DNA of 31,227 bases from a virus: positions 1-31,227 of IMG/VR virus record IMGVR_UViG_3300042560_001854; one strand, 5' to 3'. Numbering within the stretch: the stretch's first letter is position 1; every line of letters starts with the position of its first letter. The notes below the pieces were generated by a model that worked only from the letters and a program-made list of their open reading frames with translations, searched no databases and was not told the origin of the DNA. Below, one piece after another: positions 12,871 to 30,778 of the stretch. The position numbers and the translations under genes were made by a program.

Positions 12871-12953
12871 TGCCTCCGGCGGGATTCGAACCCGCAAGCT
12901 TTTTAGGGCGGCGCATTTTAAGTGCGCTATGTCTTCCATTCCATCACAGAGGC
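12871..12953 (-). tRNA. tRNA-Leu (anticodon UAA)
   Basis: An 83-nt cloverleaf on minus. The acceptor stem GCCTCTG pairs with CGGAGGC (one G-U pair), discriminator A. The anticodon stem GCGCA/TGCGC holds loop CTTAAAA, anticodon TAA. The T arm GCGGG-TTCGAAT-CCCGC is perfect, and the long variable region fits class II tRNA-Leu. CCA is not encoded, so the host or phage must add it. It supplies the UUA/UUG-type leucine codons, frequent in this AT-rich phage. Confidence 0.92.
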
Positions 12954-12957
12954 GATG

Positions 12958-13030
12958 TGCGCGTCGTGAGGATCGAACTCACCTTCGTCCGATTATGAGT
13001 CGGAAGCAGTCACCAGATTGCTAGACGCGC
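12958..13030 (-). tRNA. tRNA with CAU anticodon (elongator Met or Ile2)
   Basis: A 73-nt cloverleaf on minus. The acceptor stem GCGCGTC/GACGCGC is perfect, discriminator A. The anticodon stem TCCGA/TCGGA holds loop CTCATAA, anticodon CAT. The T arm GTGAG-TTCGATC-CTCAC is perfect. It is not an initiator: base pair 1-72 is G-C and the anticodon stem lacks three stacked G-C pairs. Elongator Met and lysidine-modified Ile2 cannot be told apart by eye. CCA is not encoded. It lies 4 nt from tRNA-Leu and overlaps the last 38 nt of the zinc-finger gene. Confidence 0.9.
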
Positions 13031-18521: not shown

Positions 18522-18902
18522 ATGCAAAACGCTATGTACGTCATTGAAATCTACCGCCACGCGGGCACGTGGTGTTTCACAGACGACAAACGAGGCTTGG
18601 TGCACGAACCTTTTGTACTCGGAATCCCTGAATTCATTGACGAAGTTATTGATTTGTTGTCTTTAGGTGAACTAAACGGCACCTACAAGGTAATTTTCTC
18701 CGAAAAAGTATTCCCGGCCTACCAAGGTTGTCTCTCTTTTAAAGAAACAGAGCACGGAGGCGCGTGGTACAGGATGTCTGTACTTAACCAAGACGCCAAA
18801 AACAGCGAAAATGGACGCGGTTGGCTCTGTCCGGCGACTTTAAAGTTCTTTGAATACTTTCCGCCCGAGATTTATTTCAAACTAGAGGCGCTGAAAGCTT
18901 AA
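18522..18902 (+). CDS. DUF6717-like protein
   Basis: 126 residues. The pattern 'M.VIeiYr..GTW.F.D...GLV.EPFV.GIPE.ID......' followed by 'yKViFS...FP.YQ...............W...........WLCPA..kFF...P..iY.K.EA' agrees with the family I know as DUF6717, seen in cyanobacteria and other bacteria. It is compact, alpha/beta and has no signal peptide; function unknown. It is the fourth single-strand island of the left arm, with an AACATC element just before the ATG and a 21-bp 3' overlap with the metallophosphoesterase, the largest of the convergent overlaps. Confidence 0.65.
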   Translation: MQNAMYVIEIYRHAGTWCFTDDKRGLVHEPFVLGIPEFIDEVIDLLSLGELNGTYKVIFSEKVFPAYQGCLSFKETEHGGAWYRMSVLNQDAKNSENGRGWLCPATLKFFEYFPPEIYFKLEALKA

Positions 18903-19397
18903 TTTCACGTCTTCCCACGCAATCGGAGCATAATTTGTCTGTTCGACACAGACACAAAGGTATCGCGGGTCGATTTTGCCTTCACAAAGGACCCGACCCG
19001 CGTGCAGGTGTCCGTGAACGTTGCCCTTAAATCGCATTAAAGCGTCCGGGTGCACAGGTATGTGTGAAAAGGAGTAGTTATCCATTACCCAGTACGCTCT
19101 AATGTCGCGAAACCTAGGGTAATAGTCTGCAATTTTAAAGGTGTCGTGATTACCTTTAATCAGAATCTTGTCACCGTTAAGGCGATCAAGCACTTGCAAG
19201 CCTTTTCGTTGAATCGCAACGTCACCTAAGTGGTAAACCTTGTCGTTAGGTTTAACAACTCGGTTCCAATGTTCGACTAAAGCCTCGTCCATTTCATCAA
19301 CATCACGCCACGGGCGTAAAAAGGACCCGTCCGGTGTTGTAAAAGTGCAGACTTTAGCGTGAGAGAAATGAGTGTCGGCTGTTAAAAAGATGTTCAC
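18882..19397 (-). CDS. Calcineurin-like metallophosphoesterase
   Basis: 171 residues with the complete dimetal motif set: DTHFSH near the N-terminus, LGDVA, GNHD, SHIPVH and HGHLH. This is the small phage/bacterial phosphoesterase type, which hydrolyses phosphomonoesters or diesters, sometimes nucleotides or RNA ends. The substrate cannot be read from sequence. I chose GTG 19397 (giving MNIFLTADTHFSH); a TTG two codons earlier is the alternative. It is downstream of the 52-residue gene and is probably the second gene of the minus arm leaving the divergence zone. Confidence 0.9.
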   Translation of the reverse strand: MNIFLTADTHFSHAKVCTFTTPDGSFLRPWRDVDEMDEALVEHWNRVVKPNDKVYHLGDVAIQRKGLQVLDRLNGDKILIKGNHDTFKIADYYPRFRDIRAYWVMDNYSFSHIPVHPDALMRFKGNVHGHLHAGRVLCEGKIDPRYLCVCVEQTNYAPIAWEDVKLSFQRL

Positions 19398-19440
19398 GTT
19401 CAATATTCACATTATTAATAATTGGAATTTACTTAAAAAT

Positions 19441-19599
19441 TTAATAACCGCCCGAAATTTGACGCATTTTCTTGATGGCTTCTTCTGTCGCTCGATTACG
19501 TTCTTGTAGCTTGTCGGCTACACTCTGCGCTTCTTGCACAAACCCACCGGGATTAACCAGCGCGCCGATGTATTTACGTAAAAAAGTGAGCGGGTCCAC
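19441..19599 (-). CDS. Small hypothetical protein, 52 residues (GTG start)
   Basis: Minus-strand frame from GTG 19599 to TAA 19441. It begins MDPLTFLRKYIGALVNPGGF and continues with a helix VADKLQERNRATEEAIKKMR. An in-frame TAG not far upstream means GTG 19599 is the best start. The first half is hydrophobic/helical with a Pro-Gly-Gly turn, the second a charged helix. It fits the space before the metallophosphoesterase, 43 bp away, and would be the first minus-strand gene out of the divergence zone. Family and function unknown. Confidence 0.5.
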   Translation of the reverse strand: MDPLTFLRKYIGALVNPGGFVQEAQSVADKLQERNRATEEAIKKMRQISGGY

Positions 19600-19811
19600 G
19601 GCGCTGCATGACGGTCTGAACTAAGTCTATCAAGTGAGCGCCGAAAGTTTGTGCTCCTATAGTGCTACCCAAAAAATTTTTTACCTAGTTTGCCAGCAAA
19701 ATTAATTTATTGTTCTCGCCGCCCCCGTCGTCGAAAGTCTATATATAAAAAAAAGGGCAAATTGCGGGCAGATTTCTTTACACATTGCGGGTCGCTAAGT
19801 ATAACGAACCT

Positions 19812-19894
19812 CGCGTGCGCGTATGTGCGTGCGCGTGCGTATGCGTGTGCGCGTGTGTGCTCGCGTGTGTGCGCGGGCGTGCGCGTATGTGTGT
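19812..19894. repeat. Alternating purine/pyrimidine tract (Z-DNA-prone)
   Basis: 83 bp of CG/TG/TA steps alternating perfectly except for breaks at 19860-19861 and 19875-19877. The block GCGCGTATGTG occurs at both ends. Such (CG/TG)n tracts are the classic Z-DNA-forming sequence and are rare in phage genomes. Confidence 0.9.
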
Positions 19895-20189
19895 TTCATT
19901 TTACCTAAACACAGCCCGTGTACTACTGTGTACTATGGACAATTAGCTAAGTGTCCCAACCCCCTTGACCTTTGCTGCTCCCCTGGGCCATGCTGTGCAC
20001 ATCGATCGGAACCCGGTCGACGCACCTAGACAATTCGAGACCGCAAGGGAAGTAGGGTCAAGCCGTGAGGCGCCGAAACGAACTGCGGGTCAGATATATA
20101 AAGACTTCAGAATGGAAGCGCAACGTTCCCGAACACAAGTAGGGCGCCGCAAGGTTGGATAAACGCCGACTCCCATTCTCTCCAGACTC

Positions 20190-20208
20190 GTAGTGTGTGC
20201 CACTACGA
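20190..20208. repeat. Perfect 7-bp hairpin in the divergence zone
   Basis: CGTAGTG-tgtgc-CACTACG. No U-run follows on either strand, so it is not an obvious terminator. Confidence 0.6.
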
Positions 20209-20288
20209 CGGCGCACACAATGTAACTATTGGCGCTAAACATTAATCACACTCGCCAAGTGATAACTGAATACATAAGTTGCACATTC

Positions 20289-20439
20289 AGTTAGTTACAG
20301 TTCACAGATAACTTGTCAGGTTGCACCTTAGTTGTGTGTCCTGATTCTTATCTTTGTATGATTCTCACGATGTCGTTTTACATTCGATGGCGAATCATAC
20401 AGTTCTAGATGAGATTCATTCTGTGATCTGTAACTAACT
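20289..20439. repeat. Inverted repeat with 20-nt arms, nested hairpin inside
   Basis: Left arm 20289-20308 (AGTTAGTTACAGTTCACAGA) matches the reverse complement of 20420-20439 at 19 of 20 positions. Inside, TGTATGATTC (20355-20364) pairs perfectly with GAATCATACA (20392-20401). Just outside, ACTGAAT (20265-20271) pairs with ATTCAGT (20285-20291), competing with the outer arm. Confidence 0.8.
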
Positions 20440-20571
20440 AGGTGCTAACTTTTATGTTTTACTTGTCTCCCGGTAGTTAACTTTACAGGGGGAGCATGTA
20501 ACACCTAGATGATTAACTTGTCCGATCACAGTTTGATCTTGTTAGGATCATTCTTGATCACAGTGATTCTC

Positions 20572-20641
20572 TCCCTCTGACTTCTTGTCAGACTGAGGGA
20601 TTCATTCCCTCATTGTTGTCAGCTGCCAGCTCTATTGCTGG
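20572..20641 (+). promoter_or_regulatory. Competing hairpins in the leader of the first plus-strand gene
   Basis: TCCCTC (20572-20577) can pair with GAGGGA (20595-20600), but the extended TGAGGGA (20594-20600) also pairs with TCCCTCA (20606-20612). A third hairpin CCAGC/GCTGG (20626-20641) ends 8 nt before ATG 20650. Mutually exclusive stems are what attenuators and translational switches use. Confidence 0.4.
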
Positions 20642-20649
20642 TGAATGTT

Positions 20650-20958
20650 ATGAACCTCAAAACTAATCATCAACCACGCGAGTTAAAGTATCTGTCTGAC
20701 TTTAACTCTGCAGATCAACATAAGATCCGATCACAATACGATTGGATGGATAAAGATAATCTTGAATGTAACTACGGATTCTTTAAGTACCGTGGTTGTT
20801 TTTATCATCTTCAAGACTTTCTTCGTGTAGCTAATGAATCAACCGGTGATCTTGTCGGTTGGGATGGTTACTCAAGTGATTCATTCTTTAGTGGTGTTGT
20901 TATCAAGTTAGTTGATAATGACTGCGATTCTGTTATTGTCGGACGCTATTGCTGCTGA
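20650..20958 (+). CDS. Hypothetical protein, first gene of the right arm
   Basis: 102 residues from ATG 20650; the frame extends to 20635 but an ATG is preferred. Content: an N-terminal helical part, then CNYGFFKYRGCFYHLQDFLR and GWDGYSSDSFFSGVVIKL ending VIVGRYCC. The core 'Y.G(F/Y)..YRG..YHL.(D/E)F.R...GWDGY..DSFFSGV.I.....D...VGRY' is a pattern I associate with small phage, plasmid and cyanobacterial proteins of unknown role. It lies behind a long structured leader and probably acts early in infection, by position. Confidence 0.7.
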   Translation: MNLKTNHQPRELKYLSDFNSADQHKIRSQYDWMDKDNLECNYGFFKYRGCFYHLQDFLRVANESTGDLVGWDGYSSDSFFSGVVIKLVDNDCDSVIVGRYCC

Positions 20959-27826: not shown

Positions 27827-28038
27827 TGAAAAAATCAATTTATGTCATTCAATCGGACAAAGGTTTCCTTTGCGACGTTGAAAAATACACAAACGACATT
27901 CACAAAGCTGCTGTATTTGTAGATTACGATGTAGCAGTTAAGAAGCTATGTGCAGTTAGTGGTGTACTAACTACCGAATGTACAGTAACAACCTCGGCTA
28001 TCGACTTTCCGCGACTCTATCCAATTTCAAAACAATGA
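27826..28038 (+). CDS. Small protein inside the AAA+/VWA operon, 70 residues
   Basis: Start overlaps the previous stop (TGATG) and its own stop overlaps the MoxR start (ATGA). MKKSIYVIQSDKGFLCDVEK, YTNDIHKAAVFVDYDVAVKK and a Thr-rich end TTECTVTTSAID. The opening strand-turn-strand and helix look like a small alpha/beta domain. Unknown family. Its tight placement between DUF3150-like and MoxR genes suggests it works with them or regulates dose. Confidence 0.6.
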   Translation: MKKSIYVIQSDKGFLCDVEKYTNDIHKAAVFVDYDVAVKKLCAVSGVLTTECTVTTSAIDFPRLYPISKQ

Positions 28039-29225
28039 ACGAAACTCTCTTTATCAAGCTGCAAAACTTCCGATCCGCTCTCAATAACTCGGCCCTTGAA
28101 CGTGAGGAAATTGTTGACGGACTTCTGGCAACTTTGCTAAGCAAACAAAACGCATTCCTTTTGGGAGAACCAGGAACAGGTAAATCAGATCTTGTCCGAA
28201 CATTGTGTTCTGGTATTGAAGGGGCTAACTACTTTGGTTATCTCCTTACTCCCACGACGGATCCATCTGAAGTGTTCGGTCCTGTAGCAGTAACCAAACT
28301 GCTGCAGGATGAATACACAAGGGATGTGGACGGTTATCTTCCTTCTGCGCACATCGCATTTTTGGATGAACTCTTCCGTGGGTCATCAGCGATTCTGAAT
28401 TCGTTGCTGACTCTGCTTAATGAGCGGACGTTTAACAACGGAAAGCAAAACATTAAAACTCCGATTCAATCGATCATTGCTGCTACGAACACATGGGCAG
28501 ATGAAGAATCTCTGCAGGCATTTGCCGACAGATTTTTGTTTCGACCGACGGTTCGCAAACTACGTAAGCCTGCTTCAAAAGCTCTGCTTGATCAGTGGGC
28601 AGCTGGCATTCAAGAAAGACCAGAGGTAGCTTGCTTCTTAAGTTTGGATGAGCTAGCCGAGCTTCAGGCAGCTGCAGCAAACATAAATATCTCAGAAGAT
28701 TTTCTTTCAAAATTCAGTAGTGTGTGGGAAATGCTCGAACAGCGAAGCATCAGCATCTCAGATCGTCGACGCGTACAAATTCTTAAGTTCCTTAAAGCTT
28801 GGGCGATTGTACAGGGCGACGATGAACTAAGCCCAGAACATATGCACAACTCAGTGATTCACATCGTGTATCAATCTGAGGAAGACAAAGACGTTATTAA
28901 AGCAGTTCTGGAGCAGGAGATTCCCACGGCTGAGCGTGTACTGAACGATGCACGGAGAGCAGCGACAGGAATCATGGCTGAGTACAGCGCTGTGCACGCC
29001 AGACATCAAGCCAGGGGTTTGGGCGATCTGAATGACATGGTTATCCAGCTTCGTAAGTTTCACAAAGATATGTCTACAGTTCACGAGAAAGTGAACGAGG
29101 TTTTAGACGGAAACAAATTTAAAATGTCAGTAACCGTTCGAGCGAACGGAGTCAAACTTACACGACAACTTCAAACTCACTGCGAAACCCTGGCTAAATC
29201 AATCAACGACCTTACAACATCATGA
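28035..29225 (+). CDS. MoxR/RavA-type AAA+ ATPase
   Basis: 396 residues from ATG 28035 (ATGA overlap); an earlier frame start at 27978 would overlap the previous gene by 61 bp. Walker A GEPGTGKS (44-51), Walker B IAFLDE (107-112) followed by LFRGSSAILNSLLTLLNER, sensor 1 IIAATN (147-152) and an Arg-bearing ADRFLFR (164-170). The Walker B context matches the RavA branch of MoxR AAA+ proteins. These hexameric chaperones remodel or load metal/cofactor complexes, normally with a VWA partner, here the next gene. A C-terminal helical region of about 200 residues follows the core. Confidence 0.92.
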   Translation: MNETLFIKLQNFRSALNNSALEREEIVDGLLATLLSKQNAFLLGEPGTGKSDLVRTLCSGIEGANYFGYLLTPTTDPSEVFGPVAVTKLLQDEYTRDVDGYLPSAHIAFLDELFRGSSAILNSLLTLLNERTFNNGKQNIKTPIQSIIAATNTWADEESLQAFADRFLFRPTVRKLRKPASKALLDQWAAGIQERPEVACFLSLDELAELQAAAANINISEDFLSKFSSVWEMLEQRSISISDRRRVQILKFLKAWAIVQGDDELSPEHMHNSVIHIVYQSEEDKDVIKAVLEQEIPTAERVLNDARRAATGIMAEYSAVHARHQARGLGDLNDMVIQLRKFHKDMSTVHEKVNEVLDGNKFKMSVTVRANGVKLTRQLQTHCETLAKSINDLTTS

Positions 29226-30778
29226 ACTTCTCTCTCGAAACTAAAACCGAACTGATCCACCTTGTAGACAATGCCCCTCTTACTCTGGCGTGCTCAGCTC
29301 TTGCTGATTTTCTCTGGGATGATTTTGTTCGTGAAGCTCGTCCATCAGTAAAGTATCTCATCGAGAAATACAACATTAAACAGCTTTCACGTTTCGGGAA
29401 AGAACTATTTGAGCGCTTGTATAACGCAGACAGTGTTAAATGGTTAGTATCTGAAGAAGACTACGAGAACTATTACAGGAAAGTATGTAACGGAGAAAAA
29501 ACAGATCTGCCTGAGGGATACAAACCTGAGAATGGTTTCTGGTGGGCGATTATGTCTGAGCTCAGCCAAGCTGCAGCGTGGGGAGAACTTCTTAAAAGAA
29601 GTTATGGTTCTCAATTCAACGCAGGTAACAACGCAATCAATATCCTTAACGAGCTGTCTGAATACATTGAACAGCTTATTGAATCTCAATCAGTTGACAT
29701 CGAACTGTTAACTCAAAGCGGTGAAGAACTAGAAAAACTCAGGCAAAAATTCAAAGACGCGATTAAAGCTGGAGATAAAGCCACAGCGGCAAAAGCTAGG
29801 CAGGATGGCAAGGAGTTAAATCAAAAACTGACTGAAGAAATTCAAAAGGCTCAGCAGTTGGTACAGGCACAAGTAGATAACGTTGTTGACGGTGCAGTAA
29901 AAAGCAATGACGAGATGTCTGAGAACATGAGCAATATGTATGGAGATAACGAAGGCTCGCTTTCGGAAACAACAGATTTAAACGAGAAGAAAGCTTTAGC
30001 TAAAAAGCTGGAGCAAAGTAAGCACTTAAGGGAAATCGCTAAGAAGTTGGGTGCGTTGAAACGCGCTTGGATAATGAGGAAGCGACAGAAAAAAATTACA
30101 GCATCATACGAATCAATTACTGGAGCTCGTTATGGAAACGATTTAACGAAAGCTTTTCCTAGCGAGATTGCACTAGCGAATACGCCAGAAGGCAAAGCTC
30201 TTTTTGCTCTTAAATACTCGCAAAAGACACTGTTTATTAAGGACTACACCGCCACGGCAAAAGATCTAGCGAAAGGACCTGTGGTTATGTATGTCGACGT
30301 GTCGGGTTCGATGCTGGGAGAATCAGAGCTCTGGAGTAAAGCCGTTATGTTTGTTGTGGCGGAGAAAGCGTTGAAGGAAAAGCGAAGTGTACACGTTTAT
30401 TTGTTCGATACAGCTATTAAAAGTGAAACTGTATTGGATTCCGTTAGGAAGAACAACAGTGAACTACTTGATCTAGTGGGACGAAGAGTCTCCGGCGGAG
30501 GTACAGCATTTAATTGTGTCATTTCCCACGCGCTCAACAATGCCGAGCTGGACGATCGTGCTGACATCCTCATGATCACGGATGGGCATTCAGACGTAAA
30601 CCCTAAACTACTAAAAAGGTTGGAGGAATTCAAAAACAGTACAGGTACTCAATGGTCCACCATTTGTATTGGAGACTCAATGCCTTCTGTCTGTAAATCT
30701 TTTAGCGACGAAGTGTTCACGGTTGATATCCGCAATCAGAATGAAACGGTCGATGCCCTTTTGAAATGCGTTCGATGA
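29222..30778 (+). CDS. VWA-domain protein with intact MIDAS, MoxR partner
   Basis: 518 residues, ATG overlapping the previous stop. Residues 1-280 are helical, with a charged coiled coil around 160-220 (ELEKLRQKFKDAIKAGDKA). The VWA domain begins at about 353: VVMYVDVSGSM with DxSxS (359-363), GGGTAF with Thr428, and ITDG with Asp454, so all MIDAS residues are present and Mg2+ binding is expected. The layout parallels CobT and ViaA-type partners of MoxR/RavA ATPases, in which the ATPase acts on or through the VWA protein. What it remodels in a phage is unknown. Confidence 0.9.
   Translation: MNFSLETKTELIHLVDNAPLTLACSALADFLWDDFVREARPSVKYLIEKYNIKQLSRFGKELFERLYNADSVKWLVSEEDYENYYRKVCNGEKTDLPEGYKPENGFWWAIMSELSQAAAWGELLKRSYGSQFNAGNNAINILNELSEYIEQLIESQSVDIELLTQSGEELEKLRQKFKDAIKAGDKATAAKARQDGKELNQKLTEEIQKAQQLVQAQVDNVVDGAVKSNDEMSENMSNMYGDNEGSLSETTDLNEKKALAKKLEQSKHLREIAKKLGALKRAWIMRKRQKKITASYESITGARYGNDLTKAFPSEIALANTPEGKALFALKYSQKTLFIKDYTATAKDLAKGPVVMYVDVSGSMLGESELWSKAVMFVVAEKALKEKRSVHVYLFDTAIKSETVLDSVRKNNSELLDLVGRRVSGGGTAFNCVISHALNNAELDDRADILMITDGHSDVNPKLLKRLEEFKNSTGTQWSTICIGDSMPSVCKSFSDEVFTVDIRNQNETVDALLKCVR

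Follow-up and report, generated by a model that had tools for sequence, protein, structure and literature searches.

Comparison of related sequences identifies the 20-nt inverted repeat of a 31,227-base virus record (the window, as the whole stretch is called below) as the closing helix of a branched 3' domain in a multi-domain structured RNA. The arms form one domain of a longer structured non-coding stretch, which carries promoter-like and boxA-like parts upstream. Our tentative reading, possible rather than probable, is that this stretch encodes a leader RNA made by the host polymerase, and that the RNA probably acts on the polymerase in the manner of rRNA antitermination.

Among annotated phages, the top match of the window's terminase is that of Synechococcus phage S-EIV1 (52% identical), and Synechococcus phage S-CBS4 matches part of the phosphoesterase gene at the DNA level (67.8%), so that a cyanobacterial host appears likely. 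No convincing gene is seen in the 1.25 kb that hold the element, which are flanked by the divergent phosphoesterase-like gene (18882–19403, - strand) and by a row of small + strand genes, the next of which starts with an ATG at 20650. This interval (19404–20649, + strand) contains the whole element and is non-coding in relatives too; a protein-coding region was rejected, since only short ORFs are present and these differ between loci. Elsewhere in the window, two adjacent tRNA genes, Leu (taa) and Met (cat), lie at 12871–13030 on the - strand (one relative, L037, also has two adjacent tRNAs), and a MoxR-type ATPase gene is followed by a VWA-domain gene at 27978–30778, a pair kept in the 87-kb contig G007.

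A branched domain closed by the inverted repeat

The two arms (20289–20308 and 20420–20439) are complementary at 19 of 20 positions with a spacing of 111 nt, which bears out the initial annotation of 20-nt arms around a loop of about 110 nt. The perfect 10-bp hairpin placed by that annotation inside the loop is present (TGTATGATTC...GAATCATACA) and included in the predicted fold, and the flanking hairpin that it had described, ACTGAAT (20265–20271) with ATTCAGT (20285–20291), reaches nine pairs, TAACTGAAT/ATTCAGTTA (20263–20293, + strand). As had been proposed, this hairpin competes for bases, overlapping the 5' arm and also the 5' strand of an outer stem, P0 (20276–20284 with 20442–20451, + strand), which is predicted both in the window and in separately folded relatives. 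The arms close the P1 domain (20289–20439, + strand), delimited by fold, arm match and alignments, and this domain contains two covarying + strand hairpins: P2 (20315–20345), with 8 of 10 pairs changed on both sides, and P3–P4 (20346–20414), with 11 of 14 pairs so changed and the conserved letters CAC...CG...GATGGC. The region 20260–20455 folds at -72.0 kcal/mol on the + strand, while 200 dinucleotide shuffles gave -41.28 (sd 4.22), for a z of -7.28 with none of the 200 as good. The minus strand gives a good fold too (z -7.21; 0 of 200), and folding alone therefore does not decide the strand.

Arms diverging without compensation, the pattern named beforehand as speaking against the proposal, were not what the relatives contained: over 36 consensus pairs, 94.0% of the cells are paired in alignment A4 (22 sequences, model-aligned and hence fitted to its own structure), and both letters have changed in 20 pairs; the covariation score was equalled by none of 500 shuffles. 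In alignment A2 (MAFFT, 16 distinct sequences), for which the RNAalifold structure was derived from the same alignment on which the pairs were counted, 94.6% of the cells of 36 pairs are paired, 15 pairs have changed on both sides, and the covariation score was reached by 0 of 500 shuffles; when the partners were slid as a control, pairing fell to 23–40%. A measure based on further pair types was weaker, being reached by 38 of 500 and 6 of 500 shuffles in two alignments. Compensating base changes stand above the controls, the mark of a structured RNA. The 12-bp arm helix is itself 97.7% paired in the 22 sequences, but its letters are mostly invariant (six wobble cells, six mismatched cells and one A-U to U-A exchange in two sequences), so that the proof rests mainly on the inner helices P2 and P3–P4.

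The paired columns of A2 contain 31 G-U and 6 A-C cells besides 25 other mismatches, all from related sequences and hence not independent; because G-U outnumbers A-C, the + strand is most likely the RNA. This excess, as RNA predicts, weighs against a structure acting at the DNA level, that is, a replication origin or another protein-binding site extruding hairpins, for which the position at a divergent-gene junction near an alternating purine-pyrimidine tract and the good folds on both strands would speak. No clear GC-skew turn is seen at the site either (1-kb steps, 31-kb fragment), and a DNA-level structure is considered very improbable. The repeat had first been offered as an ncRNA, a replication structure or a regulator site; covariation supports the RNA, and nothing specific was found in favour of a replication structure.

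Competing pairings recur in the relatives: contiguous ones of at least seven pairs are found in 13 of 17 loci and ones of just five pairs in the other four, which form a second clade (G-U allowed; a raw count without shuffle control, in which the identity of the hairpin varies and is not always that of the window). Strand exchange in which the 5' arm would pair with a copy of the 3' arm lying upstream was also considered and rejected, being non-significant in 15 of 17 loci (the exceptions are L043, P 0.04, and L047, P 0.005). At the 3' end lies a terminator-like hairpin, TGAGGGATTCATTCCCTCA (20594–20612, + strand), followed by TTGTTGT; similar hairpins occur in relatives, the T-run is missing in L054 and L060, and the GAGGG of the hairpin has an alternative pairing with an upstream CCCTC. 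Next comes a conserved 21-mer with the hairpin CCAGC-TCTATT-GCTGG before the start codon (20621–20641, + strand), which is exact in 13 viral stretches and altered in L054, L055, L058, L059, L060 and L061; where the downstream genes of these 13 stretches are related, they are only 34–65% identical.

Such mutually exclusive pairings, together with the conserved hairpin before the start codon, could make up a cis-acting translational or attenuator switch, in which P0/P1 against the upstream hairpin, and CCCTC/GAGGG against GAGGG/CCCTC, would control the next gene. However, four of the 17 loci have only a short version of the competing hairpin, the hairpin before the start codon has changed or is absent in several, L028 has a different next gene, and a kilobase of swappable modules exceeds what a switch would need; this explanation is held to be improbable.

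Relatives and upstream modules

In all, 26 viral contigs contain the P1 domain: the window, 19 reached by the arm pattern and six more by the model R1. These yield 22 distinct domain sequences, 16 of them in A2 and six added in A4. Relatives were reached through the next gene, the arm pattern, the conserved 21-mer before the start codon and the upstream module. A search of 19 whole records gave a strong match in 12, each at a single place, where the opposite strand also scores weakly; extra weak matches occur in G018 and L058. A simple terminator or a transposon end was rejected as an explanation because the arms enclose a branched covarying domain that occupies one place per contig. The contigs tested for neighbours share genes with the window (L054–L061 lie outside this test), and G007 contains many window genes, with a terminase 85% identical. 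Several loci are near-duplicates (e.g., L055, L058 and L059), so that the locus counts given here are not counts of independent events.

No R1 match is present near relatives of the next gene in other settings (L004–L013) or near relatives of the phosphoesterase gene (L015–L027), which led to the rejection of an element bound to one neighbour gene; since the next gene is different in L028, the RNA is not tied to one gene. One stretch, L014, is identical to the window over 505 bases and stops before the element. S-EIV1 has neither the arms nor an R1 match, and its divergent junction shows no TTGAC and no boxA-like pattern. A host-borne element was likewise rejected: a scan of genome contigs for the exact arm pattern was empty, and R1 gave 0 matches, under stricter filters, in 201 genomes of a Prochlorococcus genome's family, a set that included no genome with a known match.

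The base pairing, the modular build and the shared position of the element all emerge from the comparison of loci, which also favours the + strand. In the 17-locus alignment, which extends from the promoter-like site to the arms, the promoter-like site is followed by a hairpin with a motif near GAACCTTGAAAACTGAATAG, then by module II, another hairpin with its motif, one of several versions of module III, and finally the P0–P4 domain; from the promoter-like site to the next + strand gene, the element measures about 0.65 kb in the window and up to about 1.06 kb in relatives. The putative promoter of the window, TTGACC–18 nt–CATGCT (19965–19994, + strand), has homologs in 17 of 17 loci, all of which show TTGAC-N17/18-hexamer, with the hexamer ATACCT, TTACCT or GTACCT in 13, a pattern composed after the family had been seen; a generic sigma-70 scan of the window did not list the site. 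A second TTGAC site lies 104–141 nt farther upstream in 11 of the 17 loci. Also upstream of the promoter-like site is an alternating purine-pyrimidine (GT/GC) tract (19810–19893), whose alternating run is 49 nt long in the window and up to 66 nt in L062; its composition is prone to Z-DNA, and in 9 of 17 loci the GT/GC run is longer than any found in 200 shuffles.

Downstream of the promoter-like site, a hairpin at the boxB position (20002–20020, + strand) is predicted in the window transcript, with a hairpin at the same place in relatives, and is followed by the boxA-like motif GCACCTAGACAATTCGAGA (20022–20040, + strand), which is degenerate in the window and aligns with stronger copies in relatives. 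Module II is absent from the window, L048 and L062, which have a single motif copy, and L049 has another, shorter stretch at this position. Where present, module II comprises 30 predicted pairs, nine of them changed on both sides (20 sequences, without shuffle control). When its sequences are folded one by one, the ACCU of the first motif is in many cases taken up by an AGGU that precedes the second motif, so that the boxA-like motif would be hidden unless Nus factors bind first. Module III (20041–20262, + strand) is present in the window in one of several alternative versions, another of which shows compensating changes.

The size, the several covarying domains and the modular build would also suit a large ornate RNA that stands alone, being released from the mRNA either through the terminator-like hairpin at the 3' end or through processing. 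Such an RNA might work as a particle or a scaffold, which is what has been proposed for GOLLD and ROOL, and the boxA-like units would then serve only to assist the polymerase in making and folding a long RNA that is not translated. GOLLD and ROOL are, according to passages of PMC12286853, phage RNAs of 650–850 nt with no known function, and a next gene that can differ also fits this possibility. Against it, a conserved hairpin runs up to the start codon, the terminator-like hairpin with its T-run is not conserved, one module only is common to the isolated phages discussed below, and no tRNA island adjoins the element in the window, the two tRNAs being 7 kb away. A stand-alone RNA is judged unlikely.

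Resemblance to ribosomal RNA operon leaders

The pattern GAACCTTGAAAACTGNATAG occurs in at least 117 stretches of genome contigs. Among the matches listed (80), 68 come from records named as cyanobacteria, and of the 81 occurrences in them, 53 are found no more than 1.5 kb downstream of a 16S 3' end, three before a 16S start and 25 were not placed, as judged from short 16S strings. This 20-mer is taken as the boxA of cyanobacterial rRNA spacers, and the phage motif resembles it. Between promoter and arms, the best boxA match has 2–5 mismatches of 19 in 13 of 17 loci (P <= 0.01; 200 shuffles for each locus). In the window, L055, L059 and L062, it has 7 or 8 and is not significant; the window motif has 7 mismatches of 19 (shuffle P 0.105), with a better chance match (5) elsewhere in its contig. 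The rest of the same loci, longer and searched on both strands, gave best matches of 4–7 mismatches (5 in the window; L058 not computed).

Some further copies of this kind were seen in cellular genomes. Among the matches listed, a GAATAG-bearing boxA 20-mer lies outside recognised rRNA operons in L087, L089 and L129 (cyanobacteria) and in L095, L113 and L125 (Oscillospiraceae); the three cyanobacterial copies come after a stretch with TTGACA, and the one in L089 stands before a tRNA-like sequence. A GAATAG boxA-like copy also occurs in 5 of the 201 genomes of the Prochlorococcus genome's family (L197–L201), beside opposite-strand genes.

A version of module III was found, by DNA similarity, in the isolated T7-like Synechococcus phages S-CBP1 and DSL-LC07, both annotated as Autographiviridae. 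In these, the genes for terminase and thymidylate synthase and one small gene precede the module, and directly behind it begin the first small genes, which from their place and kind would be early genes; in DSL-LC07, a product annotated as antirestriction is encoded within 1 kb downstream. S-CBP1 shows TTGACA-N17-TATGGT, a hairpin and CTCCTTGACAACTTAATTA ahead of the module, and DSL-LC07 a hairpin and GCACCTAGACAATT, the same 14 letters being found in the window motif. The outer stem of module III has been swapped by compensating changes between contigs and isolates (8 sequences). The P1 domain was not found in the stretches of the two isolates examined, and a single module is common to the contigs and the isolates. 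The order of promoter, hairpin and boxA is found in the 17-locus alignment and in the two isolates, the promoter being recognised by its sequence only. According to passages of PMC10250234, boxB, boxA and boxC of rrn operons lie just past the operon promoter P2 and are repeated upstream of 23S, and in E. coli boxA is both required for factor recruitment and by itself enough for it.

For the leader RNA that we tentatively prefer, we infer a course running from transcription and its early timing through Nus recruitment and read-through to fold switching. Early in infection, the host polymerase would start at the promoter-like site, and the hairpin-plus-boxA-like units on the nascent RNA, placed after promoters as in an rRNA operon, would recruit host Nus factors. 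Thus modified, the polymerase would pass the structured leader as well as the terminator-like hairpin and go on to transcribe the next genes. The P1 domain and the competing hairpin may act on the passing polymerase or protect the transcript, and the hairpin, where present, may delay or gate the P0–P1 fold. Counting for this leader are the covariation, the + strand preference, the compensating changes in modules II and III, the promoter-like site in all 17 loci, the boxA resemblance, the rrn-like order, the module in S-CBP1 and DSL-LC07, and the variable next gene. Counting against it are the four loci, including the window, in which boxA is not significant, the better match elsewhere in the window, the pairing of the first motif's ACCU in many module II folds, the failure of the generic scan to pick up the promoter-like site, the two loci that lack the T-run, and the mutual dependence of structure and alignment in A2 and A4.

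A bolder and rather unlikely proposal is that the element is a cyanophage mimic of the rRNA operon, in which promoters and repeated hairpin–boxA units would capture the host rRNA antitermination machinery at the start of infection, interchangeable RNA modules would be exchanged between unrelated families (S-EIV1-related and T7-like), and the 3' domain would toggle between two folds. If true, it would give large phage RNAs, for which there are few testable functions, a concrete job, and it would mean that RNA domains are swapped as modules between phage families. Little was found in the literature searched on how cyanophages seize host transcription. With a covarying structure, a clear place before an operon and a module that two isolated phages of Synechococcus also carry, the element allows direct tests of its expression, its boundaries and its effect on the polymerase.

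Comparison with known RNAs and systems

A search of the whole window against Rfam 15 at the gathering score returned two tRNAs only, both outside the element, and no Rfam 15 family reached threshold within it, so that a known RNA family was rejected as its identity. At E up to 5, window positions 19400–20700 gave sub-threshold matches only, all on the GT/GC tract, and six relatives searched at E up to 1 gave two tRNAs and weak sub-threshold matches. The element is not described in the passages available from CC-licensed PubMed Central papers on cyanophage RNAs, antitermination, boxA and large phage RNAs.

With GOLLD and ROOL, the element, at 0.65–1.06 kb, shares the character of a large, multi-domain, covarying phage RNA; in contrast to them, it matches no Rfam model and is placed as a leader before a gene. 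A homo-oligomeric cage would be a further criterion for counting it with GOLLD and ROOL. HK022 put sites are RNA signals early in the transcript that modify polymerase. The same is stated of phage nut sites in passages of PMC10250234, and of the eps-associated (EAR) RNA in passages of PMC2864571. The element is like these three in kind but much larger and modular, put and EAR sequences having been compared with it through Rfam only. The manA and wcaG RNAs are, according to passages of PMC2864571, structured RNAs in the 5' regions of cyanophage genes, as the element is; however, they belong to T4-like phages, differ in structure, and have Rfam accessions that do not match the element. The boxB-boxA leaders and spacers of rRNA operons (NusB/S10; rrnTAC) resemble it in promoter, hairpin, boxA-like motif, structured RNA and repetition of hairpin and motif, but no rRNA lies downstream of the element, and its motif is imperfect, and degenerate in the window. 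The element is a new family of a known broad kind, that of large structured phage RNAs and phage antitermination leaders, and its unusual part is the rrn-like layout combined with swappable modules.
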